DNA of 64,000 nucleotides, taken from assembly GCA_963921825.1 (NCBI GenBank), contig OY997588.1, positions 123,438,715-123,502,714 on the forward strand, in the 5' to 3' direction. This document shows, piece by piece, positions 28,691 to 53,995 of this stretch. How positions within the stretch are numbered: position 1 is the first letter of the stretch; every line of letters starts with the position of its first letter. This DNA is from Erodium maritimum (taxonomy: Eukaryota; Streptophyta; Magnoliopsida; Geraniales; Geraniaceae). A model generated the notes under the pieces. That model made no database searches, had not been told where the DNA came from, and saw only the letters and a list, made by a program, of their open reading frames with translations. The position numbers were made by a program, and so were the translations under genes.

Positions 28691-28699
28691 TTGATTAAA
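28691..28699. repeat. 9-bp target-site duplication of the MULE
   Basis: ttgattaaa is repeated exactly at 35060-35068. Confidence 0.95.
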
Positions 28700-28965
28700 G
28701 GGTTATTATCATCCGAGTACCCTAAAAATACTTGGTTTTCATCCGAGTACCCTAAAAATTCTTTGCGACAGTTTAGTACCCAAACCATACTTTGTCTTTC
28801 ATATTAGTACCCAAACGCTTACGGCGTCAAATTTTGTACGGAAACAGGTCACACGTGCCCCTCATGTGCCACTTGATGACTTGAAATGTCCATTATACCC
28901 TCCTCCCCGATTGATCTCTTTTCCTCTCTCAGACACGACCCTCACTTCACTCTCTCAGACGAACT
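28700..28965. repeat. Left terminal inverted repeat of the MULE
   Basis: It is the inverted match of 34796-35059, and weaker similarity continues to about 29000. Inside, gagtaccctaaaaat occurs twice and agtacccaaac twice. As the region just upstream of the transposase start it is the probable promoter. Confidence 0.93.
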
Positions 28966-29117
28966 TCACTCTCTCAGACACACGAAGACGAAGACGAAGG
29001 AGGAGACGACGAGCTTCAGGAAGCAGAGGTAGACGACGAGCTAGGACTAGGGAGGAGGACCTTACAACTCGAACACGAAGCGCAATTCAGAGGAAGTAGG
29101 TTCGCGATTCAGACGAG

Positions 29118-32100
29118 ATGAGGAGAGTAAGTGTTCTGAATCGATTTCGATAGTTAGGGTTTCAGAATAGGAAAAAAAGTGCTTCGTTTGTTTGTTTAAA
29201 CGATTAAGGCGAATGATTTTGATTTGTAGGGTTGAGGAATATGATTTTTAGGGTTTAGGGTTTTGATTTTAGGTTTCCATTTGTTTGTTTTAACGAATTA
29301 GGGATCAGTTATGTTGTAAATTGTTGGTTTTGATTCCGTATATGTGCAGAAACGTGGTGTTGTAAAACCAAATCGTGTTGCTGCTGATGATCCCTTTCTT
29401 CAGAAACCTTTTTGTGTTGAACTGCATTTTGGGGGCAGGTTTGTGGGAGGTGATAATAGGTATGAGGGGGGTTCTGTACGAGTGTTTCTTGTCCGTGAGG
29501 ATGAATGTAGCTTCTACAAACTGTCCTACTTAGTGCATGAGGTAGGATGTGAGCCCACAAGTACCCTGCACTTTAAAGAAAGAAATGTAGTTAGGAATAT
29601 TGTTAATGATGATAAGTGTGTAGGTAGATGGTTGAAGAGGTACAAAGGTACAAGGGCAGCTAGGAAGTTGTATGTAATAGATGGAGAACCACTACTATAT
29701 ATGGTGTCTCCGAGTGGGGTTATCTTGGGAGGGAGTGAGGCAAAGAAGAATGGGACTATAGGTTTACAAGTGATGAAACCGAAGGAGAGATAGAAATTGT
29801 ATGAGGATGAGAATGAATATTTCTCTAGAAAAGGTCTTATTCATATGATAAAACATGGGCATAAGTTAGACAAATTCTCCATGTTGGATGGAAGGAGGAT
29901 TATTCAGGTGGTTCCAAGTGACAATGAAGAAGAGGGCTTGGATGGAGGTCATGGTCAGAGGGGAAGTTTTTTTGGTATGAAAAACAATTACTCTTTATTT
30001 TTGTATTATGATATTATGTGTTAAGAACCCTAAAAATGTACAATTTTTATTTGTAATGTGATGTTGTTTGTAGGATATGATAGTGATGATGAAGATGAGT
30101 ATGAGGATAGTGATGGAGAAGCAGATTATGGGTGTGGTGGTAGGGATGGAGAAGAAGCCCATGCCAATGATGGTACTGATGAAGCAACAGAATATGGCTT
30201 TGGTGGTAGTGATGGAGAAGAAGTGTATGTCCGTTTTGAATGAACCAGCAAGGGAAGAGATTAATGAGGATGATGATACAAATATGGGTAAGTAACATAT
30301 TCTGATTTGTTGTTAAGAATTCATTACATTTAGGTATGTAACTGATATTCAGATGGTTTTGTGTACAGAAGATGAAGATGATGATGGTTTGATGGATGGT
30401 CCTCAATATCCAGAGGATGACGATGAAGAGGACTTGGTGGATGGTACTGTATATCCAGATTGTCTGCACATAGGGGAGTATGATAGTGATGGTGATAGGG
30501 TTCATGGAGGACATGGATGGAAGGATGCAGTGGAATCTGAGAAAGATGGTATGCAGAATTCTGAGAATGAGGAAGAGGTTGCTGAACCTACAGTTTCTGA
30601 GGAGGATGAAGAGGAAGATCAAGTGGTAGAGGTGGAAGGAGATAAAGCATTTGACCCCAGGTGGATAGATGGACGTAGGGTATGTGACGTAGAAGACTTG
30701 AGGAAGAAAGTCTTGATGGGTATGAATGTGTTGTTCAAGAATGCAACAGCATTCAGGAAATTGTTCATAGCCTATACTCTCAAACATGGCTGGCAATTTC
30801 GATGGAAGAGGAATGAGAAGCGAAAGGTTGCTGTTCAATGCAGGCACAAGCTCTGCAATTTCTGGTGCTGGGCTGGTTTCTACAAGAAGACGAATGTTCC
30901 GGAGATAAGGAAGTGGAAGCCTCATCTGAAATACTGCCCAAGGAAAATGGGGAAAAAGCAGTCTCTGCAGATTTTTTATCACACAAATTTGCAAAAGAGA
31001 TCACTCGGGCACCTACGATGATGAAGGATGATTTGGCAGCCCTTATCCTAGATAAACTGCAGTGCAAAGTCAGTGATCAGATGTTGTATCGAACCTTGAG
31101 GAGAGCCAGGCTACAGACTGAAGAGGACTTGGCAGCACAGTACAATGACTTGTACACTTATTGCGAGGTTATTCGTCAATCCAATCCAGGAAGCAAGGCG
31201 GTGTTAGCAGTTGAACATGATGTGTACCCACCCGAGCCCGGTAGTCAGCCACGGTTCTTGAGGATGTACATTCGATACCAAGCACAGAAAGAGGGTTTCC
31301 TTACTGGATGTAGGCCAATCGTTGGGGTAGATGGTTGCCATCTAAAAGGAAGGTTTGGTGGCCAACTCCTAGCAGCCGTAGGGTTTGACGCTGATGGAGG
31401 GATGTTCCCACTTTGTATTGCTGTGGTTGAGCAAGAAAACAAGGCATCTTGGAGATGTTTTTTGGAACACTTCTTCGAGGACTACGAGACGGATGTTCTG
31501 AGACATTGGGTGTTCATGTCTGATAGGCAGAAGGTAAGTTGTCCTCTATATTTTTCATTCATACTTCATACTTACTTGTTTCCATACCCAATGCAATAAA
31601 AATGTGCTTCTTCCATGTATGGGCTGGTGTCCCTATTCAGAGAGCGGTTGCCCAACACAGAACACCGATTCTGCTTGAGGTATATGTACGAGAATTTGGT
31701 CCTCAAGTTCAAGGATGCAGAATTAGACTCACTGCTCTACGAATGTGCGAAAGCTTCATCTGTAGAGAGGTTTGAGCAACGAATGGAGGAGATGAAGAGG
31801 CTGAATGTGGATGCCCGTAACTGGCTACGGGATATTGACCCATCAGGTTGGTCCAAGGCATTTTATTCAAGTAGGGCTAGTAGTGACATTCAAGTAAATT
31901 CCATGAGTGAGTGTTTCAACAACTGGATGAGGAAGGGTAGTTCTAAGAGTATTTTAGATCTTTGTGAGTTTTATAGGATTAAGTTGATGAAAATGTTCTT
32001 CAAGAGGAGTCACAAGTTTGATGATCCAAGTAGTACCCTCACACCTTATGCAATTACAATCCTAGAAGAGAACAAAGTTAAGAGTATTGAGTGTGAAGCA

Positions 32101-33436
32101 ATAAATAGTGAGGACTTAATCTTTGAGGTTAAGGAGGGAGAAAGGAACTACATTGTGAACATGATAGAGGAGAAATGTTCATGTATGTCTTGGTTGTTAT
32201 GTAGGATACCATGTAGGCATGCAATTGCTGCATTAGTACATCTTAGGGTTGAACCAGAGGAGTATGTGAGTGACTACTACCATGTGAAGACCTATAAGAC
32301 CATTTACTCTCACTATGTCAAGCCCCTGCCAAGTAGGGATGATTGGCCACTCATCCCACACTACCCCAATGTTTTACTACCAATTGTGCAAATCCCACCT
32401 GGTAGACCTAGGACTAGGAGGGTTAAATCCAAGGCTGAAAAAATAATTGCAAAGGCTAAAGGAAAGTCCAAGGTCATGAAGTGCTATGTGTGTGGTGGGA
32501 AGGGGCATAATTCTCGAACATGTTATGTGAAAGACCATGGGGAGAGCAAGGCCAAAAGGAAAGTCAGAAAAGGGAAAAAATCTGGCCACACTACTACAGA
32601 GGATGAGTTCGCAGAGTTGATGGCTAAGAGGAAGGGCAAGGTCGAGGAGAACTTGCAAAAGAAGCGGAAAAGAGAGTGCTCCAAGGAGGAAATTGAAAAA
32701 AAAAGGCTTGATGCACTTGAAAAGTTGAACAAGAGGAGGAAACATACCAAAGACAAACAGGTATGAAACTGTCATACTAATCCTTGCTGAATTTTTGCAT
32801 TCCATGATGAAACTTTGTAACCTTCGATTTCAAAATATTCAATGTAGGCTGAGGCAACCACACCAGCTACGATGGGAAGTCAAACAGGTAGTCCAGCTGG
32901 TGCTGGCTTAGCTCAAGTTGACCTTAACAAAATCTGACAAAAGAATCAGGTATTAAACTGTCATTAAAATTACTTAACTCTTTTGACCTTTTCTGCTTGG
33001 ATAGAATATGTAGATGGGTATGAATATGACATTCCTTGATTTGTTTTGCAGAATGCTATGGGAAGTGAACCGAGTACTCCTGCTACATCACAACACCCAC
33101 CTGGTACTGGCTTAGCACAATCTGAGGTTAACAACACAAGTCAGAGTAATCAGGTATGAAACTGTCATACAAACCTTACCTGTTATGAACTTTCTGCTAC
33201 CATTCATATGGATTTACTTGCTGAAATCTTCAATTCCTTGCCAAAATCTTCTGCTGTAGATCCCCTTTGTGTCTCTGAGAGGACAAGAATCTGGGACAAC
33301 AGTAACTGAGGATGCCCAATTTGTGAGAGGACAAAGAGGCAGAGGAAGGGGGAGAGTACGAGGAAGAGGAAGGGGAAGAGGACCTTCAAGGAAATCCACC
33401 TCTACCACAAGATCTGCAGCAGCCCCTCCTCCTTGA
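29118..33436 (+). pseudogene. MURA-type MULE transposase, eight predicted exons, recently broken
   Basis: Predicted exons: 29118-29126, 29350-29974, 30074-30287, 30369-31533, 31621-32760, 32848-32949, 33052-33153, 33260-33436; reading phase matches across most joins. In order: N-terminal domain; acidic stretch; MuDR DNA-binding domain (exon 4, RHKLCNFWCWAG, HLKYCPRKMG); DDE nuclease with D in GVDGCHLKG, D in FMSDRQK and E in NSMSECFNNW; SWIM finger (CSCMSWLLCRIPCRHAI); CCHC knuckle (CYVCGGKGHNSRTC); Lys/Glu-rich coil; Arg/Gly-rich tail. It would cut and reinsert the element through its inverted repeats. Breaks: TAG at 29791, frameshifts near 30235 and 30950, a stop near the end of exon 6, and intron 31534-31620 ending in at rather than ag. 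All DDE and zinc ligands survive. Exon joins are inference. Confidence 0.9.
32848..33153 (+). repeat. Duplicated exon-intron unit in the transposase tail
   Basis: Predicted exons 6 (32848-32949) and 7 (33052-33153) are both exactly 102 nt and encode related segments (GSQTGSPAGAGLAQ versus a GS...GTGLAQ counterpart). Exons 5, 6 and 7 are each followed by caggtat(g/t)aaactgtcat. The copies arose by tandem duplication of one exon with its flanking intron. Confidence 0.8.
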
Positions 33437-34085
33437 ATTCCTTAGGGTTTGGGGAGTTTATTTTGTGGTAGTGGTAGGAATATGTCAACTTTTGGGAGGA
33501 TGGATATTTTTTGGACTTTTGTGGTGGTTGTAGAGGTAATTAATGTGGAAAGTAAGTTGTGCACATGTATGATGGGGACAAGGACACGATGTGTAAGACT
33601 TTACAGCCTTTTTGTTTTGGATGGATGAACACAAGACCTTTCTTATGTACACTTTGAATGCTATATTTTACCAACATTAAAAATTGTGTGTGAATGAGTT
33701 CTGATTTTCAAATGAGCAATATACTTTGTAGGTAAATAATTTCTGTGTGATTGAGTTTTGGACATTAGGTTTGTGGCCCACAAACAGATGGGTCATGTCA
33801 AAATGTATGAAAACTATTAGTTTCAGATTAGTACCCATCATCAAATTCAACAAGGAGGCCATTTCCATTCCCCTTTCTTTCAAGTACCAACTTTCAGATT
33901 AATACCCTTCTACAAATTGAACACAAGTAGGCACATTCCATTCACATTTCCTTAACATACCAACTTCAGATTCATATTCATCTATAAATTGAACACAAGG
34001 AGAGAAATTCCATTCCAATTCACTTACAATACCAAATGTCAGTCTACAACCCATAAGCTAATACAAGGAATTCATTACATTTTAC
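33437..34085. other. Shared 3' region between the converging MULE genes
   Basis: No protein is recognised. A short degenerate repeat (cacaaggaggccatttccattc-like) recurs several times at 33840-34030. Transcripts from both genes would end here. Confidence 0.5.
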
Positions 34086-34668
34086 CTAAGACCTAAGACA
34101 ATACAAAACCAGTCCTACAATGATGAACAACACAACAATTAAATTTCGGGGGATATCTTTCTTCAGATCCACCTCCATCCTCATCCTTAAATTGATTTCT
34201 TCTTTTCCAGGTACAGGAACCCCAACAATATTGCACGACTCTTCATCAATCCAACAGAAAAACTTGCACTTCCATCCACGCTATGAACAACATTTACCAG
34301 AAATTAGCCCAAAAATTGTAAAACCCTAATTTTGACATAAATTGAATAAGATTTCCCAGAAATTAGCCCCCAAATTTATAAAACCCTAATTTTCACACAA
34401 TTTGAGTAACACAAAAATTAGTTCAGATATGAACAACCTTTACCAGAAATTACCCCCAAAAAGTGTAAAACCCTAATTTTCACAGAAATTGAATAACACC
34501 AAAATTGGTTGAGCTTACATTGTACATCCCGCAGCCACCAAACCTTCTTCCAGGATTCTCCTTCGTCCTCGAGGTTTGTATGGCTGCTGGAACTTCACAG
34601 TAGCAGTACAACTCCTCAATCTTCATGTTCCGAAACCCAGAACTGGCGCCCTTTGATTTCATCGACAT
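34086..34668 (-). CDS. Small GRF zinc-finger protein with C-terminal membrane anchor, inside the MULE
   Basis: Two exons, 34668-34519 and 34280-34086. The intron has gtaagc and catag borders, and the reading phase is kept. The predicted protein has 114 residues. A GRF-type zinc finger fills residues 22-61: ligands C22, C24, C46 and C55, the signature ENPGRRFGGC, and KFFCWIDEE after the last ligand. A short basic/acidic linker leads to a hydrophobic segment (about 97-112, LIVVLFIIVGLVLYCL), probably a single membrane anchor. GRF fingers bind nucleic acid in known nucleases and topoisomerases; short plant GRF proteins with a tail anchor exist, but their role is not established to my knowledge. 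No stop or frameshift is visible. Upstream non-ATG starts would add up to eight residues. It runs against the transposase and starts next to the right inverted repeat. Whether it is an element gene or captured host DNA is open. Confidence 0.85.
34290..34510 (-). repeat. Intron repeats with three telo-box motifs
   Basis: The GRF intron is made of about three copies of accagaaattagcccc plus gtaaaaccctaattttcac. Each holds aaaccctaa (34321, 34381, 34468), which reads ttagggttt on the gene's sense strand. Telo boxes of this form are known regulatory motifs of plant genes. Confidence 0.8.
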
Positions 34669-34795
34669 CCAGGCTTCGTCTTCGCGGTGCAAGCTCCTCC
34701 TCCTTTGCTCCTCCTTCTCAATTGCGCGTCGTCTTCCTCTGCAGACTGCTCCTCCTTCGTCATCGAGCGTCTTCGTCTAAGAGAGTGAGAGAGTA

Positions 34796-35059
34796 AAGTT
34801 GTGTCTGAGTGAAGTGAGGCTCGTGTTTGATAGAGGAAAAGAGATAAATCAGGGAGGAGGGTATAATGGACATTTCAAGTCATCAAGTGGCACATGAGGG
34901 GCACGTGTGGCCTGTTTCCGTCCAAAATTTGACGCCGTAAGCGTTTGGGTACTAATATGAAAGACAAAGTATGGTTTGGGTACTAAACTGTCGCAAATAA
35001 TTTTTAGGGTACTCGGATGAAAACCATGTATTTTTAGGGTACTCGGATGATAATAACCC
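34796..35059. repeat. Right terminal inverted repeat of the MULE
   Basis: Inverted partner of 28700-28965. Its inner edge lies about 130 bp from the GRF start codon, making it the likely promoter of that gene. Confidence 0.93.
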
Positions 35060-35068
35060 TTGATTAAA

Positions 35069-41188: not shown

Positions 41189-42875
41189 TGTTAGTCTTAG
41201 TGCCCGTAGTTCAATTCAAAATGTCCAAATGTATATATCATCGTTAGCAATAAAATTAAAGCGACTTTATATTACTTATGTGTTGGAGTAATATATCGAC
41301 GTGTGTTCTGATATATGCCCACCATGCGAATAAAACCATAGATCAAGATGGATCACACTCGATGGGTCCCTAGTCAACACAGCTTCACTAGAAGCGACTA
41401 GTATGAAAGATGGCTCTTATGGCTTACATTCTTTTAGTCATTGGAATGGGATTCCGAAGTCCGATCAAAGATATCATGTGGGACATGATATTGGACGACC
41501 CGACATGAATATATTCCATAGGTCAAGTCATGAACATAGTCATTGTCGTAGCTTGTCATGTATCCTTAGACCAATGAGTCTTTGTGCTTACTATGCAGTA
41601 AACAATAGAGTTTGACCTGAGCCCAACGTTGCATGTGATAGGGTGCCCATAATGGCCATGATTGGCTTGGGGATGGACTGCATGAGTGACACGAAAGACG
41701 GATAAGGGATTTATCCATCATACTGTGGTATGGGAAAGATATCAGTTCTCGGCCGCTTGATCGAGAGTGACTGAAAGAATAGCATGACCATGCACATGAT
41801 ACTGTGTATCATATATTCAGTAATCTCACATATCAAGGAACAATGATTGGGAATAATAAGGATGGCGTCTCTATGCCTTATCTCAATCAGGATATCAGTG
41901 ATAAAAGGATAATGACAGGGATGCCAGAAATGTTAGAATCGACATGGTCGATTCGTTATGCAGTGTCAGGCAATACTAAAGTCTCGTTAGTTGCTACTTA
42001 TATAGGATCAAGTAAAATGGGATTTTACGTTGATCTATTGACATGCATAAACCTAAGGGTCACACCGGAGGATGAAACTCATTGACACATTTATGGAGAA
42101 TGGCCAAAATGGAGTTGTCTCGAGACATGAACAAAATTGGGTTTTGGGTCATGTGCCCGTAAGTGAATAGGACTTTACGGATCGAGACAAGGCTTGGAGT
42201 CTTGGGATTGATCACGTCGGATAATGTTGGACATTTCTGGTATGGAAGGCTTGGAGGCGATGAGCGTATGACGAGACCTCGTTGGGAATGGCCACGGGCC
42301 ATATTCCAAGAGGCCCATGAGAGGCCCATGCAACCAAGGCCCATGGAACTAATTAATCAAGTCTTGATTAATTAGTATAAGTAAGCAAGACAAGGATTAA
42401 GGTGTTGGTGATTCACCACCTAACCCCATCTTGTCTAGTCTTACTTAGCACCATACTTGTCTTATTTACACCATACTTGTCCCATGCTTTTAGTTTGACA
42501 AGTTGATGGAGTTTGTTATGTTTAAGTCATCTTTTTTCAACATAACAAACGCAAGACAAGAATAGGAAACACAACTTCTCCCTCCTCTCCCTTGCAATTT
42601 CGGCCAAGGTAAGCTCCCACCTCCATTTTTGTGTTCTTGAGTCCTCAAAGAGAAGAACTACGCGGCTTTAATTCCCATGTGGATACGTAGGCATCTTGGA
42701 GACTCAAGCCAATCATTCGTTACCCGGTGTTCATGTTTTGGTAAGAAATAGTGCTGTAATTTTCTCTTGTGAATCCATTCTTTATTAGTAGTTTCATGGT
42801 TTTAATCGTCTCTTGGTTTTCATTGATTTTCCGTTTCGAGTTGGTTCATCTCTAACCCTACCTCGAGACCCAACA
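41189..42875 (+). repeat. 3' LTR of the sense copia remnant
   Basis: It starts tgttagtcttagtgcccgta right after the polypurine tract and most likely ends at gacccaaca, about 1.69 kb. A sister LTR begins at 62854. No primer site follows the end, so this is a 3' LTR. Confidence 0.78.
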
Positions 42876-42889
42876 GAAGGGCATACCAT

Positions 42890-44486
42890 CTATGTTGCGT
42901 AACCTTGGGAAATGGAAAGGGAGAAGCAGATTGTGGAGTTGGATCTTCGACACGCATTGAACAAAAAGCGTGAGATCATGTGACCGTCTAGCAAAATTGA
43001 CTAGGTGTTGCAGTTGGTGAAAGATGTGGAAATGGCCAAGGTTCTAATAGGAGGTTGGTTAGGATTGATAAGAAGTTAGGCCTATGTAGATGTGATTCAG
43101 GAGGAACTAAGCAGGGATGTAGTGATCAGAGATCTTGGTAATAGATTTGTTTTGGTGACGGTGGATGATGGGTGGTTGAGAGGAATATGGTAGAGTCCAA
43201 GTGGGACTGGTTGTCGACCTGGTTAGTGGTGGGTTTGGGAAAAGAGGACGTGTTAAAGGAAGAGGGTGTGTTTTGATGGTGCCGGGTGAAGGGTCTGCCA
43301 GTGCAGTGCTAGAGTGAGAGGAGTTTCTCTATGGTAGCATCACAATTTGGCTCTTTGGTGATAGTGCATCCATCTTCGTGTTCGGGCAGGATGTTGCAAG
43401 AAGCCTTTTTTTTAATCAATGTGAGGGTTGATTCAAAAGGGACACAATATTTTATGATAGAAGTTGAAGGAGAGAGGTTTACTGTAGAGGTCGAAGTGGT
43501 AGAGGCAGGAACGACACCTATTGTGGGTTGTTCGTGAGGGAGACCTATTGAAGTGTGTGAATCCAGTTCTCCAACAGGGGAGGCGAGTGGCTATGTAGGT
43601 AGGAATTTTTCTGGGTTTTTGACTGGTAAGGGGATTTAAGTGAGGCAAAGGGGTCGGAGGGGAGTAGACCTTTGCAGGTGGAGTTGGAAGAGAGGAATAC
43701 TAAATTTCCTCCGACACAGTTTGGGGGAGACGAAGAGGTTGAAGACTCAGAGAAAACAATGTCAAGTTTGATCAGAGAGTAAGGGAACAAGTGTTCCACA
43801 AAAAGGCTGGGCCAAGGTAAAAAGGGTAAAGAAATTCACTCAAATTTTGTTACTGATAAAGACGTGGTGTAGGAGCTATTTGGGCCCGGGCCGAAACAGA
43901 TGGTTAAGTTGTCTGCCACAAGACAGGCCACAGATGCATGGGCCTATTACAAGGCTGTGGCTTTAGCTCTAAGTTGAAGGGTATTGAGCTTCAAAATCAC
44001 ATCAAGGACTTAGGCGCAGAACTCAACCCGATACACAGAGAAGACAACATAACTGAATCGGAATAAAAAGAAGACGACTCCAGTAGCGACGGGGTTGTTT
44101 TACCATCGCAATTATGGCCATTTGGTAAGATATTTCACCCAAAGGAGATATTGAGATGTACGCAAACAGATCTTATTCATCCACCGATGCGTCGAGGCTA
44201 AGCTTATATTATGTTTCAGTGGGATACCGACTGTACGCCGGACGTCACAGACGGATCGAAAACCAAATTGGAAGTTTTGGACTTGTTCGGGAAATAAGGT
44301 GAGAAATTCGCATAGGACATTAAGCAATACATGTTTTGGACATGGGATCATGAACCGGTTTTTGATTACGCACAAGAGACTCAAGAATTGTCTGCTGCTT
44401 TGGTGCATTACAGGGAAGAGAAAGCAAAGGTTGTTGCTGAAGTAAAACAATTGAAGCAACAAGCCAAAATGGACTACTTAAAATGA
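42890..44486 (+). pseudogene. Decayed DUF4283-type (LINE ORF1-like) gene
   Basis: The middle (about 43260-43500) reads as the second half of a DUF4283 domain: a VKGLPVQC segment like the usual W-x-x-GLPLHxW, then a stretch ending in YFMIEVEGERFTVEVEVVE, as in these proteins' last beta strands. The last 130 bp encode a charged coiled-coil-like end (EEKAKVVAEVKQLKQQAK) closed by a stop at 44484. Frameshifts and stops separate the parts. Such proteins are plant LINE ORF1 or their relatives. The sequence starts immediately after the copia LTR, which may have inserted into it. Confidence 0.5.
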
Positions 44487-45152
44487 AGGGAGAGGAGTTT
44501 CTAATGTACTTCCATACAACTTGGAGTTTATTTTTTTAAGTGGAGGAAATGTATAGTGTGGTGATATTCAATGAAATGTGGGAATCAGTTGGTGTGGTCT
44601 TTGTGACTAACACTTAATGATGTAAAGCTTGTACTAAGTAGCCTACTTTACTTCAATGACAAGTAATCTCTTATTCCTATAATGTATTTTGTGTTCTTTG
44701 AAAACATCTTAACAGTTCGTTTAGTTTATTAAATCCAATTACCACCAATCCCTGCCCATGAACTATTTCCATTTCATTCTTGTTCAATACATGTACTATG
44801 TCATTTGGGGTAATGTAAGTTGAGATAATTGTTATATTGTATATTGATTTGTACTGTTTTGTTAAGTAATCCATCAAAATTGTATATAACAACAATAAAA
44901 ACTTAGTCACAAGGAAGTGAAGGTAGAGATATTAACCACATGATAACATACATGCATACATAGCTGAACAACAACTAAAATAGTTACTGCGAAGTCTCCT
45001 AATTTGGGAGAAAAGAATGTGGGGCCGTGGGTGCGAGGTGTATCGGCCTTAATAAGACTAGTGCCTCGACTTACCAAAAATTCTGACCATTCAGTTGACT
45101 CGATGTATACATAGCGAGTAAAGTGAATGTTAATCGGGAGAGATAAGTATAC
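44487..45152. other. Intergenic stretch, no gene seen
   Basis: AT-rich. The - strand frame at 44677-44910 has no recognisable feature. It forms the left flank of the short-LTR copia insertion. Confidence 0.4.
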
Positions 45153-45157
45153 AATAC

Positions 45158-45283
45158 TGTTAGATAAGATAAGCGATAAGATTCGTTTGTAATTTGTATT
45201 TACCCGATCATAGATATCTGATCAGCATTACTTGTATTTATATTCCATTGATTAATGAGAATAGCATCGATCACAATCCAACA
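45158..45283 (+). repeat. 5' LTR, short-LTR copia
   Basis: tgttagataagataagcgat through to caatccaaca, 126 bp. Confidence 0.95.
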
Positions 45284-45698
45284 TGGTATCATAGCCTTCT
45301 ATGCTCCTTACCCTATTTTTCTTTTAAATTCTGCCGCATACTTCTGCAAATTTCCTCTTCATATCACGAGTCTGCATCAACAAGGATTCTGCACACTCAG
45401 TGGCAGAAAATCGCGTTCCAATTGCGTCAGTTCCAACTCGCGTCTCCTGTTGCGATTCAAATCGCGTTCCTCTGTTGCAAATGGCATTCCAAATCGCGTC
45501 TCCTCTGTTGCAGAATCCAAATCGCAGCTGAATCCAAATCGCAGCCTCCTTGCGATCTCTCTGCAGCCTGTCGCAGCAACCCAATCGCCTCTCTGCGATC
45601 CATTCTCACCACGTCTTTGCAGCCTGCGATCCATCCTCATCACGTCTTTGTTGCAGCAACCCACTCGCAGCAACTCAATTGCAGCAACATTTTTCTAC

Positions 45699-46840
45699 CA
45701 TGACCGACTCGAAACTTCACCAAGCCTTGCTCGTCTCCAACATTCGCAACGCCGTTACGGTCACCTTGAAGATGGAGACGGGTCAATAAACGAGATGATC
45801 TGAGCTGTTTAAGATCCATTGTCGTATTTATGACGTTCTCCGTCACATCATTTCTTCCTCGGCTGTCGGAGCACCTGTTGGAGCTGTTGTCGTGCCTACC
45901 TCGCACGCACCTGCTCAGTCCGTGTCCTCTGAAGCAACTGTCGTTGATGATGCTGCTGATGGAGGTGCGAATGCTGCTGTCACATATCAATCCGAAGCTG
46001 ATTAAAGTATTGTTGCTACTCAAGGTCAATCTGGGTCCGTGCCTACTCAAGCCACCACCACTCAGGTTTCGTCAAATTTATTTTTTGCTAATTATGCCTT
46101 ATGGTCTCGATTGGATGCTGCTGTTTTGCAATGGATTTATGGTACTATTTCATCGGATTTGCTTCAAACAATTATTGAACCGCACACTACTGCTGCTCGT
46201 GCTTTGCTGGCTCTCAACAATATTTTTCAAGATAATAAGCACTCTCGTGCCGTTTATCTCGAGCAACAATAATCTACTACATGTTTAGAGAATTTTTCAA
46301 ATGTTTCAGCTTACTGTCAGGAACTTAAATCTTTGTCTGATCAGCTCTCTAATGTTGGAGCTCCGGTTTCCAATAACCGCCTTGTTCTCCAACTTGTCAC
46401 AGGTTTAACTGATGCATATGACGGTATTGATACACTTATACAGCAATGCAATCCGTTACCACTGTTTTATGATGCCGAGTCTCGTTTGGTTATGGAGGAA
46501 ACAAGGAAGCAAAAGCAAGCACATTCAGGTTCTTTTTCTTCGGCTACTGCTCTTTCAGTTACTGATAGTAACTTCTCAACAAATGCTAAAACTTCTGCTC
46601 CTGATCACTCCGGTCGTGGATCCCATTCTCGCGGACAACAACAACACCGGAGAGACCGAGGTCGCCACAATTCACGAGGTGGCCGGTCACAGTCTTTTTC
46701 TCACCCTCGGCCTCATGCTAGCCAGATCTTGGTCCCTCTCCTTGGGCATATTGGCCTCAACAGCCTTGGACCAATAGCCCCTGGTATGGACCTCCATGTC
46801 CCTACCCGTCTCAACCTTTGGTTCGGGCACCTGTCAGGAT
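45699..46840 (+). pseudogene. gag of the short-LTR copia element
   Basis: It begins MTDSKLHQALLVSNIRNAV, as in Ale-type gag, and includes the segment LVLQLVTGLTDAYDGIDTLI. It ends in an Arg/Gly/His-rich nucleic-acid-binding tail, with no CCHC knuckle that I can see. Broken in several places. The leader before it (45284-45698) has repeated aatcgcg motifs. Confidence 0.85.
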
Positions 46841-46949
46841 GAATTCCGGTCAACAGCATAATGGACAGCAGCAGGGTATACTCGGCCAACACCCTCACGC
46901 TATGTCAGTGTCTTCCATCCCTACAGACATCAGTACTGCCATGCATACG

Positions 46950-48520
46950 TTGACCCTACAGTAGCCGGATCCAAATTGGTATATGGATACGGGAGCTACT
47001 TCTCATATGACTTCCACCTCAGGTAGTCTCAAACCTTATTTTATTTAGAGTACTGCTCGTCAAGTTATTATTGGTAATGGTAATTCAATCCATATTGCTG
47101 GTTCTGGACATACATCCCTTTTACCTAACTACTCGTCCTTCCGTTTAAATGATGTTTTGCATACCACGAACATTGTTAAAAACCTAGTTTCTGTCCGTCG
47201 TTTTGTCACTGATAATGATGCTTCAGTTGAATTTGACCCTTTTGGTTTCTCTGTGAATGATTTTCGGACGGGCACTCCGGTCTTGAGATGTAACAGCTCC
47301 AGCGATCTCTATCCAGTCACTCGACCAGTGTCTTCTGGTTCTCCATCGGCATTTGCAGTTTTCTCTCCTCAATTTTGGCATTCCCGATTGGGTCATCCTG
47401 GAGATCCAGTTTTTGATTCTTTACTTCATCAACATTTAATTTCATGTTCTTCCAATTATAAACATTCTGCCTGTCAATCATGTGTGTTTGGCAAACATTT
47501 TCGATTGCCTTTTATTAATTCCTCAAACACTATTGTTTTCCCATTTGATATTATTCATGTCGATTTATGGACTACACCAATATTAAGTTCTGCAGGCCAT
47601 CGCTATTACTTATTGTTACTTGATGACTACACAAACTTTTTGTGGACATTTCCCTTTGGTGCTAAATCAGATGTTTTTTTTCTTTTCTGTTTTCTCTATG
47701 TTCAATAAAAAATTTCAAACTCAATTTGGTTGCTCAATTAAGAGTTTTCAATGTGATAAGGGAAAAGAGTTCGATAACTCTTCTTTTCATCACTTTTGTG
47801 CATCTACAGGGATGGTTTTTCGTTTCTCATGTCCTCACACATCGTCTCAAAATTGTCGTGCTGAACGTAAAATACGGGCTGTAAATAATATGATTCGTAC
47901 TTTACTAGTTCATGCTTCTTTACCCCCATCTTTTTGGCATCTTGCACGTCATATGACTACCTACTTGCATAATATTCTCCCTTTTAAAATTATGAATTTT
48001 TCTTCTCCAACTCAAAAACTTTGTCATTGTACCCCAACATATTCTTTCCTTCGTGTTTTTGGTAGTCTCTGTTACCCGCTCCTTCCCTCCACCACCATTC
48101 ACAAGTTACAACCTACAAATGTTTTGATCTTCTACATAATAAGGTCATTATCTGCAGGCATGTTAATTTTGATGAAACGACATTCCCATTTTCCACTTTA
48201 TCTAACCAGTCGCAGGCTGATTATTCATTCTTGGATGACGCCCCATCACCTATGCTTCGTCTCCCCTTCCTTGACCAGCACGCCGACGCCGCCAGCCCAT
48301 CTCCAGTGGCACCTTCTTCAAATCAGGCCCGATCACCTACCCAAGCACGCCCAGATTCTGCCTCATCCGGAACCGGCCCACAGTCTCCAGCTTCTTCAGC
48401 TTCACCCGAGCAATGTCCTACCAACACTCCTACAGCCCACGCCACACCTCCTCCATCTCTAGCTCCAGCATCTCTACCACCTCGGCCAGTCCATCCAATG
48501 AACACTAGAGGATGACCCGG
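46950..48520 (+). pseudogene. Protease and integrase of the short-LTR copia element
   Basis: Protease traces lie around 46975-47150. A GAG-pre-integrase segment follows (FWHSRLGHP near 47380; SCVFGKHFRLPF near 47480), then the integrase core (DIIHVDLWTTP near 47550; LLLLDDYTNFLWTFP near 47610) and a Pro/Ser-rich linker (48230-48510). Broken in several places. Confidence 0.88.
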
Positions 48521-48599
48521 TATTGTCAAACCTAAGGTCCTTTTTAATCTCTATACATCTCTTGACCCATCCCCTATCCCGAAAAATCCCTCCCTTGCC

Positions 48600-49990
48600 T
48601 TAGCCGATCCAAACTGGAAACTAGCAATGCTTGACGTGTATAATGCTTTAATTAAAAATAATACATATGAGTTAGTTCCTCGTCGTGCTAATACTAATGT
48701 GATTTGGTCTATGTGGGTTTTTCGTTATAAACGGTCTTCTGATGGTTCTTTTGAGTGCTATAAAGCTCGTCTCAGCAGGTTGGCATTGACTGTGATGAAA
48801 GATTTAGCTCGGTCGTCAAGCCTGCAACTATTCGGATGGTTTTCAGTCTTGTAGTCTCTCAATCTTGGCCCATCCATCAATTGGACGTTAAGAACGTTTT
48901 TCTCCATGGGAATCTCAATGAGACAATCTTCATGCATCAACCTATAGGATTCCGGAGCACGACTTATCTTGAACATGTATGTTTGCTGAAACGTTCACTT
49001 TATGGTCTCAAGCAAGCTCCCAGGGCTTGTTATCAGCGATTTACTGATTTTGTCTCCACTATTGGATTTTCTCACAGCAAATCTTTGTTTATATATCGAC
49101 GTGGTTCTGATCTTGCATTTCTTCTCTTATATGTGGACGATATTATTCTGACTATCTCGAGTCATGATCTCCGGCTATCTCTTATGGCCTCCCTGAGCTC
49201 GGAATTCGCCATAAAGTACCTTGGTCCGTTGTCTTTTCTCTTGGGCGTTGCTGTCACACGCCATGTTGGCGAGATGTTCTTGTCCCAATGCAAGTACGAT
49301 GAGGAGAATATTTATCCAGCTGGCATGAGTCCCCGCTCTCCATCAGCTACGTCGGTGGATACGAAGGCCAAAGTGAGTGGTTCGGTCGGTTCTCCAGTTT
49401 CTAATCCGACTTTGTATCATAGTCTCGTCGGTGCTCTACAATATCTCACATTCACCAGGCCAAACATATCCTTTGCTATTCAGGAGGTGTGCCTTCAAAT
49501 GCATAATCCTCGTGATTCACATATGGGTGCTATAAAGCGTATTGTTTGCTACCTCTAGGGGACTCTTCATTTGGGACTTCATTTATACTCCTCCAAGACT
49601 TCCGAGCTGGTTTCTTACACTGATGCAGGTTGGGCCAGCTGTCGTGACACTCGCCGATCTACGTCTGGCTATTGCGTTTTTTGGGTGATAATCTCGTTTC
49701 GTTGTCCTCCAAGCGTCAGCCAACCATATCCCGCTGTAGTACTGAAGCCGAATACCGAGGAGTTGCTAATTAAACCTTGCTGGATTCGAAATCTTCTGTT
49801 GGAGCTACATTGTCCTTTATCTTGGGCCACATTGGTCTACTGTGACAATGTTAGCGCCATTTGTTTAGCCGGTGATCCAGTTCAACATCAACGTACGAAG
49901 CACATTGAGCTTGATATTCATTTCGTCCGGTAAAAAGTTGCTAAAGGACATGTTCGAGTTCTTCATGTGCCTTCTCGGTCCCAAGTTGCT
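48600..49990 (+). pseudogene. Reverse transcriptase and RNase H of the short-LTR copia element
   Basis: RVT_2 motifs: QLDVKNVFLHGNLNETIFM (near 48880), SLYGLKQAPRACYQ, the catalytic LLLYVDDIIL (near 49125), and a RNase H with [20 protein letters not shown] (near 49620) and the final HIELDIHFVR. The catalytic YVDD box is intact, but the region is broken in several places. Confidence 0.9.
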
Positions 49991-50083
49991 GATATATTTA
50001 CAAAGGGACTCCCACACGTCCTATTCACTGGTTTCAGGTCCAGTCTGAACGTCCTGCCTCCTCCCGTTCAGAATGAGGGGGCG

Positions 50084-50209
50084 TGTTAGATAAGATAAGC
50101 GATAAGATTCGTTTGTAATTTGTATTTACCCGATCATAGATATCTGATCAACATTACTTGTATTTAAATTCCATTGATTAATGAGAATAGCATTGATCAC
50201 AATCAACCA
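50084..50209 (+). repeat. 3' LTR, short-LTR copia
   Basis: 126 bp, same length as the 5' LTR, with about five differences. Confidence 0.95.
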
Positions 50210-50214
50210 ATTAC

Positions 50215-51181
50215 GTAATGTAGACCATACCTAACATCAAATGAAGCATGGAAAATACATTAATGTCACAAATTGAACCGTCCACAATACAAATCGCAAC
50301 CAAAGAACCACCTTATAAATTAGAACATGAAAGCTCAACAGTATTCCAAAACCAATATGTTTTGCATCGTACATCTATGACGTATCCCACCACAACGCAT
50401 AAGACATCATATGGATTGGTATAAGCTGGGTTTATCGGTTGGTATGGTTGATGCCTTAATGGTGTGGATATGTTATAAATAAGCGGTGGAATTTTGAAGA
50501 AAAGCATTGTAGATATTATCCATCCATTGAAAGAGTTGACATCGACCTTCAAAGAATTGTCAATATATGGGATCCGTATAAATTGTAATGCCATCATTGC
50601 TATGTATGAATCACGTATTGGATATTATTTGAAGTTTATATATTTGGTATACATTTGGATAAAGAGTTTGACGACAAATTCCAAATTTATAGACATTTCA
50701 TATTATGTGACAATTTGGGTTGGGATAAATGATATTAACCATGAATGCCATGTCATTCGTGAATCCTAGTGTTTTCCATGCAATATAGTTTTATTGGTAC
50801 TCGCCATCTTCGTTTTTATTTGCACATATTGAAATGCATAGAAAGAAATTTTGAATTGAGCCACCACCAGTCCTCTATTATAAATATTTAGGTTCATTAT
50901 ACTGGGTAGTCAATATTCGGTCATAATCAAAATATTTTTACATATCTAACTACAAAAAAAATGTTGGTAACAAACTATTCGAAATTACTCGATTCTTGAG
51001 TATTGCATCTTAAATTCATATATTTACTCACAGACTATTAATTCCAAAAATGGTGAATTGACAAAAATCTTTGTATAATTGTAAGCCGAAACTATTGGAT
51101 TATTTATATTAGTGTGAAATCATATATCCGAAATGGAGAATGAACTAACACTTTGAAACATGTCACTCGCGTCCCTTTTGT
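50215..51181. other. AT-rich intergenic stretch, no gene seen
   Basis: The - strand frame at 50313-50597 and the + strand frame at 50494-50769 overlap each other and match nothing I know. This is the flank between two insertions. Confidence 0.4.
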
Positions 51182-53995
51182 TGTAAGAACCACTCCTGGC
51201 CAACGCTAGTCAAATCGGCGAAAAACAAGAAAATGTAAAATTTTTGGACAGACACTTAAATGAACCTAAATTTGACCCCGAGGGTCATACCGGACTTAAG
51301 TTGACCCCAATATCGACCAAAGTGAGTTCCTGGGGACTCAGGGCAACTTTCTGACCAATTTGGGAAAGGTTGACTTTTTGCTCGAAAAGTCAACCGAGCG
51401 ACGTTTTGGTCCGTTCGAGGTCTGTTTTGGATCCAAAAAGCTTAGCCGTCGTCACAGCGGTCTTAGTTGAGCCGTTTCCTTGTAGCCCGTGAAGTTTCGT
51501 AATTTCTTGGAAAAAGTGTCAGTTCGGGGCCCGAGACGACCGAATTTCGCGAATCTGAAACAAAACAAAAGGTGTGGGACCCACTTGCCACATGTCAATT
51601 ATGTGGTGGTGTTAGGTTTCTTGAACAAAACAAAATATGAGACATGGATGTTAGTTTTGTAGTTAAAGGATAGTTTTGATTTTTTAAAACAAAATAAAGA
51701 TGAATGGTTGGAGAAGTGTTCACCCATTCTCAAAAAAAGGAAGAAGTGGAGAGAGAAAGTGGAGAGAGGAAAGAAGAGAGAAGAAAGGGAGAAAAAGAGA
51801 AGAAGGGTTGTGGTCTTGTGACTTTTCCCGTCGATCAAACTGGTGGATCGTCTCAACGATCAAGGAATCGAGTTCACACCGTCATTCTCTACGGTGAGCA
51901 CCTAACCGATTTTCATTTTGGAACGTTTGAATTTTAGGGTTTGAGTTTAAATGGTTTGATTAAGGTTGGGTTGAGGTTTGGGTTCGTTAGGAACGTTTTG
52001 GGGCGAAAAGAAATGTTTTCCGTTGTGGCCGTGTGGGGTCCACGTTTTCGGGCCTTGGGTTTTTCGTGTTCAGGTGGTTTAGGACGACCCCCAAGTCGTT
52101 AATCCACACCTGGAACAAATTTTGGAATTATATTGTGAAAGTTGTAATTGATGGGTTTAGAAACTTTAAATGTGAATTAAATTACTCGGAAGTCAGAAAT
52201 TGATTCCGTCGAGTGCATAGGAACCCTTGAATTATTCTAAGATTGTAGAAACGAAAACGGGAATTTTCGGAGCCCCGGAAGGGCGTTTTCAAAAACCGGG
52301 CAGATTCGCCATGTCGGGCGAATCGGGCTTTTCCGAGTCCTTTATCGACAATGTCTAGTAATTGGGAAGTTTGGGAGTGATCGACATTGTCGGGGTTACT
52401 TTTGGGCGTCAAGTTTATTAAAATTCAGTTTATGCCTTCAAGCTTTAAAAGTATTTAAAATTGTGTTCTTATTAGATCGTGCCGCAGACAGAGGAAAGGG
52501 AAAGCTAGGCGAGTGATCAAGATCACATCGGAGCTTGTTTGTGCGCTTTTGGAGAAAGAATACGAGGTAGGGAAAAGTAGCCGGATCTCGGCCCTGATTA
52601 GGGAAAGTTAACAGTAGAAATGCATGTGACACCGGGGTGTCGTGGGTTAAGTAAGTTTATCGAATATTAGAAAGGTAGGCGATACCGGGTGGTGTCGTAT
52701 GATACGGGAACGTATCGAACAATAGAAACGCATGTGACACTTTGTAGTATCGTAGGAGCAGTGAACTTTCGATATTAGAATTACTGGAGGCATTTGTTTA
52801 TGCCCGGAGGTTGATTGTTTAGTTTGTGTCTTGGGTGGTCATGAGAGCCCGTATTTTACGGCTGGGTCTTGGGTGGCCATGAGAGCCCGTGTCTTTACTG
52901 TTGGTGTCTTGGGTGGCCATGAGTGCCCGTGGGGTTGTTGAACCCGTGTCTTTACTTTTGGCGTCTTGGGTGGCCATGATTGCCCGTCGGGTTGTTGAAC
53001 CCGTGTTCTACCGTTGGTGTTTTGGGTGGCCTTGAGTGCCCGTGGGGTTGTTGAACCCGTGTTTTACTGTTGGTGTCTTGAGTGGCCATGAGTGCCTGTG
53101 GAGTGTCAAACTGGTGTCGTTGCTGTTTGTTGAACTTTGTTTGTGATTGTGATTGTGGTTACATGAGGTTGGGGGCCCGCTTCATAATAACGGGGGTCCT
53201 GCGATCGCACGCGTCTGCATGTTCAAACGGGGTAGGGGGCCCGCCCGTGAGGAAAGGGGTCCTGGCCGCGCGTGCGTGGTGGTGACAGGTCGACAGCCTG
53301 ATCTGACTTTGTGTCGGGAAAAGTGCAACAGGTCGACCGCCTGGCCTGATAGGGATCGAAAAAAGTGGCGACAGTCGACCACCTGGCCTGACAGGGATCG
53401 GTAAAGGGCGAGTGGGGGTTATTGAGCAGCTGGAGTGCGATCCTTTGTGATCTTGTTTGGTGTGCGATCCTTAGTGATCTTGGGTGTTGTGTGGTTATCT
53501 GTCGTGTCTTTGGAGGAAGTCGTCAATCGTTGTGTCGGGTCTACATTAGGTGTCCGAGTGTTGAGTCGGTTGTGGAGGGTAACGTTATGAGTGTCAGTCG
53601 GGTTACTTGAGTTTGGGGATAGTAGTCCCTGGTGTTGAGTTTATTGTTGGTGTTACTGGCATTGTCTGCTAAGTATGCCGTAGTCAGTCTGTTATCCGTG
53701 GTGGTGAGCGAACACTCACCCCTAGCTGCTTTTCCTACAGGTACTGGTCGCAGGATGGACTAGGTGAGCTTCCGAAGCTTGAAGAGTTAGGAGCAGGAGT
53801 CCGGGTTTACTTTTGAGTCTAGCGACGTACACTTGTATTTTATCCGCTTGTTGGGACGTACTTTTGAGTTGTAAATAATTATTTTGGTTAAGTAAACGGT
53901 GGTTTTAAAGTGATTTATTTAAAAGGTTTCAAAATGCTTTATTGTTTTAAACGTTCGCGTCCCGAGTTTGGTTTTACTGAAATTGGGGCGTGACA
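51182..53995 (+). repeat. 5' LTR of the second Tekay-type element
   Basis: About 2,814 bp. It contains the minisatellite at 52830-53105. Confidence 0.87.
52830..53105. repeat. Minisatellite of about 50-66 bp in the LTR
   Basis: Five to six copies of tcttgggtggccatgag plus gcccgtg, the later ones with an extra gggttgttgaacccgtg insert. Confidence 0.88.

Follow-up and report, generated by a model that had tools for sequence, protein, structure and literature searches.

Several described Mutator-like elements (MULEs) carry a second gene beside the transposase gene, and the role of these second genes (MURB, VANC, ORFR) is a standing question. The maize element MuDR (mudrA/mudrB) is described as combining a 9-bp target-site duplication with long inverted repeats and two oppositely transcribed genes (PMC9168764; PMC6446971). 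Abermu elements from barley and other plants are described as a two-gene type II, with ORFR on the opposite strand between the transposase and the 3' repeat, and ORFR is reported to be unlike MURB (PMC9168764). Antisense second genes also occur in plant MUDR clades carrying a PMD gene (PMC6446971), and the Mutator-type VANDAL elements possess accessory genes (VANB/VANC) and repeats in their non-coding parts (PMC10398659). Here we analyse a comparable element in a 64,000-nucleotide stretch of Erodium maritimum DNA (contig OY997588.1, positions 123,438,715 to 123,502,714), hereafter the window. The element, at positions 28700-35059 of the window, contains a damaged transposase gene and a convergent two-exon gene encoding a small GRF protein with a C-terminal hydrophobic segment. 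We regard it as a decayed member of a multi-copy Mutator-like family, the autonomous ancestors of which carried a transposase and a convergent GRF gene in the MuDR layout, a reading to which we assign a probability of roughly three in four. Judged from sequence comparisons, the GRF gene looks like an old accessory gene and not a one-off capture, because its arrangement is shared by all 25 copies examined, its exons are conserved, the ratio of nonsynonymous to synonymous substitution rates (dN/dS) lies below 1 in distant pairs, and a second element also carries a convergent GRF gene.

Structure of the element and its two genes

The element consists of the following features, of which the ends and the 9-bp duplications were read directly.

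28691-28699: left 9-bp target-site duplication, TTGATTAAA
28700-35059 (6,360 bp): Mutator-like element
28700-28952, plus strand: left terminal inverted repeat of about 250 nt, with four AGTACCC cores
29320-33436, plus strand: transposase gene, damaged, with an N-terminal exon, DBD_Tnp_Mut, MULE domain, SWIM finger, CCHC knuckle and basic C-terminal end
33821-34042: 72-bp tandem repeat in 3.1 copies separating the converging genes, one unit with an AGTACCC core at 33830
34280-34086, minus strand: GRF exon 2, with the fourth cysteine, FFCWID, the EEINLRMRMEVDLKKDIPRN linker, the C-terminal hydrophobic segment and the stop codon
34518-34281, minus strand (238 bp): GRF intron, GT..AG, mostly 60-87-bp tandem repeats (34284-34510)
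34668-34519, minus strand: GRF exon 1, with the start codon, the first three cysteines and NPGRRF
34807-35059, minus strand: right terminal inverted repeat, likewise carrying four AGTACCC cores
35060-35068: right 9-bp target-site duplication, TTGATTAAA

A sequence-only reading of this DNA had proposed clear ends with a perfect 9-bp duplication, two convergent genes in the MuDR layout that each start at an inverted repeat, an intact 114-residue GRF gene with a C-terminal membrane segment, and at least four transposase lesions. The coordinates, exon junctions, frame and splice sites hold upon re-examination, and so do at least four lesions (29791-29793, near 30953, near 31620 and 32935-32937). 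The 9-bp duplication typical of the Mutator superfamily, TTGATTAAA, flanks both ends. The inverted repeats differ at 6 positions in the outer 219 nt (97.3% identity) and at 9 of 251 aligned nt, and each repeat opens with its four AGTACCC cores at a spacing of about 30 bp, those of the left repeat lying at 28716, 28746, 28775 and 28806. The two genes converge from the two repeats, as in MuDR, and likewise in the sister copies and in the second element described below.

The transposase was assigned by Pfam searches with seven pieces of the gene, which detected the MULE domain PF10551 (39.5 bits, cut-off 27.6) and the SWIM finger (26.3 bits, cut-off 19.6). DBD_Tnp_Mut (PF03108) scored 23.0 bits, slightly below the cut-off of 25 (E 6e-5), and the CCHC knuckle was read by eye. 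Neither the GRF protein (searched up to E 0.001) nor any of the seven transposase pieces (up to E 1) matched PMD or Ulp1 in Pfam. We compared the lesions with 16 sister copies, fewer of which align at each site. The stops at 29791-29793 and 32935-32937 are absent from all 13 and all 14 aligned sisters, respectively. The window copy and L020 have both lost the 3' splice site near 31620, which 12 of 15 sisters retain; L029 and L031 do not align there. A fifth lesion, no more than a suspected frameshift near 30222, sits in repeat-rich sequence. The transposase gene of the window copy is dead. The one-base difference in the A-run near 30953 is common to the window copy, L012, L014, L015 and L016, which would reflect either repeated slippage or the spread of a broken copy by another copy's transposase.

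The GRF gene lies on the minus strand, begins 139 bp inward of the right inverted repeat and encodes 114 residues in two exons free of stops and frameshifts. Its protein contains the four cysteines (C22, C24, C46 and C55) and the G-R-F core (GRRF), both of which are also visible by eye in the plant proteins fetched, followed by a charged linker (EEINLRMRMEVDLKKDIPRN) and a C-terminal stretch with a mean Kyte-Doolittle value of 2.3 over 19 residues, which is probably a membrane segment. Pfam returned no match other than the GRF ribbon (PF06839), which scored 25.4 bits in the window protein, narrowly under the cut-off of 25.9, and 33.4 and 29.0 bits in the two sister proteins scanned. A search of the PDB yielded NEIL3 as the sole match (E 0.09), and scans of viral and prokaryote contigs gave nothing useful. 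A word search of the protein collection with the window protein alone produced one candidate and no match, which is a limit of that search because an alignment query finds 1196 proteins in the same collection (see below).

The sequence-only reading had also argued from an intact GRF gene beside a broken transposase. This argument fails. Under neutrality, a 345-nt gene would stay undamaged with P 0.14-0.65, the clock being set by repeat divergence or by the density of transposase lesions, and the GRF gene is, on our reading, undamaged in only 9 of the 25 copies, the window copy among them. We therefore rejected the intactness of the window gene as a sign of selection; the window copy shows nothing beyond neutral decay since its insertion.

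Related copies in the same genome

We searched the Erodium maritimum assembly that contains the window (763 Mb, 40 contigs) using the GRF gene and the right repeat as a probe. At least 67 matches were found, which is a lower bound because 40 of 924 candidates were scored. Twenty-five copies including the window copy were examined and fall into three groups by similarity: group A with 11 copies, mostly 87-93% identical to the window copy at the DNA level; group B with nine copies, mostly 77-80%; and group C with five copies, 67-81% over the matching parts. In every one of the 25, both GRF exons are antisense on the side of the right repeat and split at the same residue, although the intron varies from 90 to 533 bp in length. 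A recognisable right repeat adjoins the GRF gene in 24 copies, and pieces of the transposase, some of them fragmentary, occur in the fetched DNA of 23, with none seen for L023 and L030. The sequence-only reading had suggested asking whether the GRF gene is always at the same place; it is so in all 25 copies examined from this genome, which were found with a probe that included the gene.

Twelve copies have their own perfect 9-bp duplication and two have one with a single mismatch. In the remaining 11, either the flanks fail to match or at most one end could be located. The copies are separate insertions, since the duplications differ from site to site. In L015 (6880-7437) we observed two right ends in tandem; after the inner one comes the outer target-site duplication in reverse-complement form.

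A genome-wide search with exon 2 of the window GRF gene, in which 150 of 151 candidates were scored and a few sites were counted twice through frame shifts, yielded 119 matches with identities down to 41%, of which 75 are free of stops. At 50-64% identity, 40 of 62 matches contain no stop.

Conservation and selection on the GRF gene

Between the window copy and four of the five group-C copies, the GRF exons are 77-84% identical. The surrounding sequence is less similar, with 29-32% for the intron, 40-44% for the leader, 48-65% for the stretch 3' of exon 2 and 63-66% for the inverted repeat. Comparison with two group-B copies gave 85-92% for the exons, 33-34% for the intron and 74-81% for the repeat. 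Mismatches between the window copy and L031 fall at 30 of 114 third codon positions, as opposed to 19 and 15 at the first and second positions.

We estimated dN/dS for 12 chosen pairs, which share branches and are not independent, with exon 2 of L013 and exon 1 of L025 masked in the alignment. The 95% limits lie below 1 in seven pairs, all of them distant: window-L031 (0.36, 0.21-0.63), L030-L031 (0.25, 0.13-0.47), L011-L031 (0.39), L011-L032 (0.38), L014-L032 (0.37), window-L030 (0.34) and L017-L031 (0.42). Among the pairs between groups A and C, 1 is excluded in five of six. A single dN/dS over the tree is 0.62 for the GRF gene and 0.39 for the transposase; such values are mixtures because copies decay freely after insertion. 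The dN/dS test among GRF copies, which the sequence-only reading had called for, thus points to values below 1 in seven of the 12 chosen pairs, whereas 1 is not excluded in the pairs from nearer groups. At the level of sequence comparison, the distant pairs show purifying selection on the GRF gene. In addition, distances of the GRF gene and the transposase correlate across 19 copies (r 0.79, reached by none of 2000 permutations), as expected of genes travelling together.

These data bear on the idea that the family ancestor caught a host GRF gene once, early, and that the gene has since been carried as functionless passenger DNA in the manner of Pack-MULEs. In its favour, MULEs are known to capture genes (PMC9168764), related small GRF proteins that end in a hydrophobic segment are very numerous in plants (105 of the 120 listed have such a segment), and the limits of five of the 12 pairs include a dN/dS of 1. 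We nevertheless consider such a history rather improbable, as the exons are kept at 77-84% beside an intron and leader that are nearly unalignable, a dN/dS of 1 is excluded in the other seven pairs, 40 of the 62 matches to exon 2 in the range of 50-64% identity have no stop, and the GRF gene of a distant second element is interrupted by an intron at the same place. A captured gene of a Pack-MULE would be found in one or few copies, but this one is present in all 25 (with GRF in the probe) and in 119 exon-2 matches; no close relative was found outside elements, though one may exist.

Between groups A and C, synonymous sites diverge by 0.33-0.51 in the GRF gene (six pairs) but by 0.84-1.30 in the transposase of the same elements (three pairs). 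Constraint on the DNA, exchange between copies or differing mutation rates are possible causes. The low value is what one would expect if the GRF exons were kept as DNA or RNA and not for their protein. However, we find this very unlikely given that third positions change most in the group-C comparisons (30 versus 19 and 15 for window-L031), that a dN/dS of 1 is excluded in five of six A-C pairs, and that the second element retains the plan of the protein.

A second, distant Mutator-like element

The second Mutator-like element was met by chance in the DNA of L025 and L039 (contig C6, 21929524-21938144), where it sits inside the transposase gene of a copy from group B. It ends in 112-bp repeats of 97.3% identity, flanked on both sides by the 9-bp duplication AAAGAAAAA. 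Its transposase shares 37.5% identity with that of the window element in the MULE domain and 28.7-32.9% in the C-terminal part. A GRF gene converges with the transposase from the other repeat. The GRF exons (21930404-21930538 and 21930641-21930940) are separated by a 102-bp intron and encode an open frame of 144 residues, with a coil and a C-terminal hydrophobic stretch. The intron occupies the same position as in the window gene, after an N and before the block with the fourth cysteine. When we scanned the window and L009-L039 with ten transposase queries, dropping matches within 300 bp of the window family's own on the same strand, no other-lineage transposase was found besides the second element; the GRF partner is thus present in one of one.

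Two MULE lineages might also have caught GRF genes independently from one large host family, the GRF product being repeatedly useful. In phmmer against the 120 fetched plant proteins, among which the window protein is not included, the second-element GRF protein matched best P0121 (At4g04775-like, Vicia villosa; E 5e-18). It resembles ordinary plant GRF proteins, whereas the window family has a linker of its own, and at least six further GRF matches above the Pfam cut-off exist in the genome. Orientation, side and intron position are, however, alike in both elements, for which a single origin is simpler, even though the intron position may also come from one host family. We consider independent capture doubtful. 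The sequence-only reading had left the choice between an accessory gene and a recent capture, and the related copies support the accessory gene. A one-off recent capture from the host was rejected in view of the 25 of 25 copies examined with GRF in the probe, the dN/dS values of the distant pairs, the 119 exon-2 matches and the second element.

GRF sequences elsewhere in the genome and in plants

The further matches to PF06839 mentioned above, at least six outside the studied copies, come from a genome search with 150 of 243 candidates scored, which misses GRF domains split by an intron, including the window's own. Within the window, 44191-44316 is a remnant of another GRF gene (CFSGIPTVRRTSQTDRKP..) that has lost core residues; its best match is a Tanacetum GRF protein (E 1e-6), and no inverted repeats were found around it between 42501-44203 and 44291-52000.

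A query made of a seven-row GRF alignment, two rows of which are generic probes with hydrophobic tails, retrieved 1196 proteins from the protein collection. The 120 listed have 85-199 residues and come under flowering-plant names, except about ten that are unnamed. Most are called GRF-type domain-containing, uncharacterized or hypothetical proteins, two are At4g04775-like and a few DNA topoisomerase. A hydrophobic C-terminal stretch is found in 105 of the 120 and the linker pattern of the window family in two. We tentatively suggest, as a possibility short of even odds, that the small GRF proteins with hydrophobic tails found throughout plants, at present annotated as unknown proteins (At4g04775-like), are in good part accessory genes of an ancient and diverse Mutator-like branch, and would form a new membrane-based class of helpers with a role like that of MURB or VANC.

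Evolution and possible role of the GRF gene

Several observations weigh against an old accessory gene in an ancestral two-gene family. The GRF ribbon falls below the Pfam cut-off both in the window protein, narrowly (25.4 versus 25.9 bits), and in the second element (22.8 bits). On our reading, the GRF gene is damaged in 16 of the 25 copies, in that it lacks at least one of four things: an uninterrupted frame, undisturbed splice sites, a start no later than the third codon and a regular stop. The AG of the 3' splice site is gone from L009 and L021, and in L033 about 3.2 kb separate the GRF gene from the right repeat. The probe contained the GRF gene, so the counts of copies are no guide to the share of elements with the same ends that lack it. 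The dN/dS limits include 1 in five of 12 pairs, among them all three between groups A and B (L015-L017 0.93, window-L017 0.67 and L011-L017 0.71) as well as L011-L028 (0.60, 0.34-1.15) and L028-L032 (0.64, 0.34-1.30). The window-L017 mismatches, 5, 12 and 10 by codon position, show no excess at the third. Finally, it is not obvious what a hydrophobic tail would do in a transposition reaction that takes place in the nucleus.

As for how the element may have worked, the transposase and GRF genes each begin next to one of the inverted repeats and run towards each other, an arrangement shared with MuDR. Transposases cut at the repeats, and GRF domains of DNA-repair proteins bind nucleic acid. The GRF ribbon would most likely bind nucleic acid too, and the C-terminal anchor would tether the protein to a membrane, the nuclear envelope for instance. 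The GRF protein could thereby hold single-stranded DNA at the ends, or tie the complex to the nuclear envelope. By analogy with MURB, without which MuDR reportedly does not insert, the GRF product would most likely help the element. Promoters have been reported in MULE repeats (PMC6446971), and the GRF gene would presumably be transcribed from one in the right repeat.

Another role that the GRF product could have is to counter host silencing, as VANC does for VANDAL, through repeated motifs in non-coding parts. GRF ribbons are not known to be sequence-specific binders, which counts against this role. For VANC proteins, binding to non-coding tandem repeats that contain short motifs has been reported (PMC10398659). 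The element offers four AGTACCC cores in each inverted repeat plus a single one within the 72-bp tandem repeats, and the measured copies of groups A and B keep one to four cores, apart from L026 with no exact one. The cores are, however, equally good candidates for transposase binding, three of the four measured group-C copies have one exact core only, and VANDAL ends are reported to be degenerate whereas the window ends are not. A VANC-like role of the GRF product in countering silencing is an alternative to be taken seriously, albeit an unlikely one.

Comparison with known systems

Among the open-access papers listed by literature searches, none visibly pairs a GRF protein with a Mutator-like element; subscription journals and Repbase-type libraries lay outside this scope, and a description may exist. 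GRF-type fingers, beside transposon domains, are reported among the families enriched in Asteraceae (PMC10359422), which fits a pairing of GRF genes with transposons but proves nothing.

The likeness to MuDR concerns the layout. Its partner MURB is not known to be a GRF protein. The PMD-carrying MULE clades resemble the window element in their antisense second gene but differ in having PMD as the partner, and the table of MULE partners contains no GRF (PMC6446971). In contrast to VANDAL elements with their degenerate ends, the window element has long ends that are 97.3% identical over 219 nt. Abermu elements resemble the window element in the placement of the second gene. Their description does not mention GRF in its main text; ORFR is reported to be dissimilar between distant plants (PMC9168764), whereas the GRF partner here is recognisable between distant elements.

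Judged from sequence, these elements represent a genuine Mutator-like lineage in which an accessory gene for a GRF protein with a hydrophobic tail has long resided, the function of which we infer. The GRF partner has a domain that can be recognised, an intron, a probable membrane anchor and indications of purifying selection, and so offers a testable case for what second genes do. Many of the plant proteins annotated as "GRF-type domain-containing" may be encoded by transposons; this bears on gene counts, and association studies naming GRF candidates would then be affected. Plant small GRF proteins (At4g04775-like) share with the window protein the GRF ribbon, a linker or coil and mostly a C-terminal hydrophobic segment; unlike the window gene, they are annotated as ordinary genes, and the window family differs from them in its linker (EEINLRMRMEVDLKKDIPRN).

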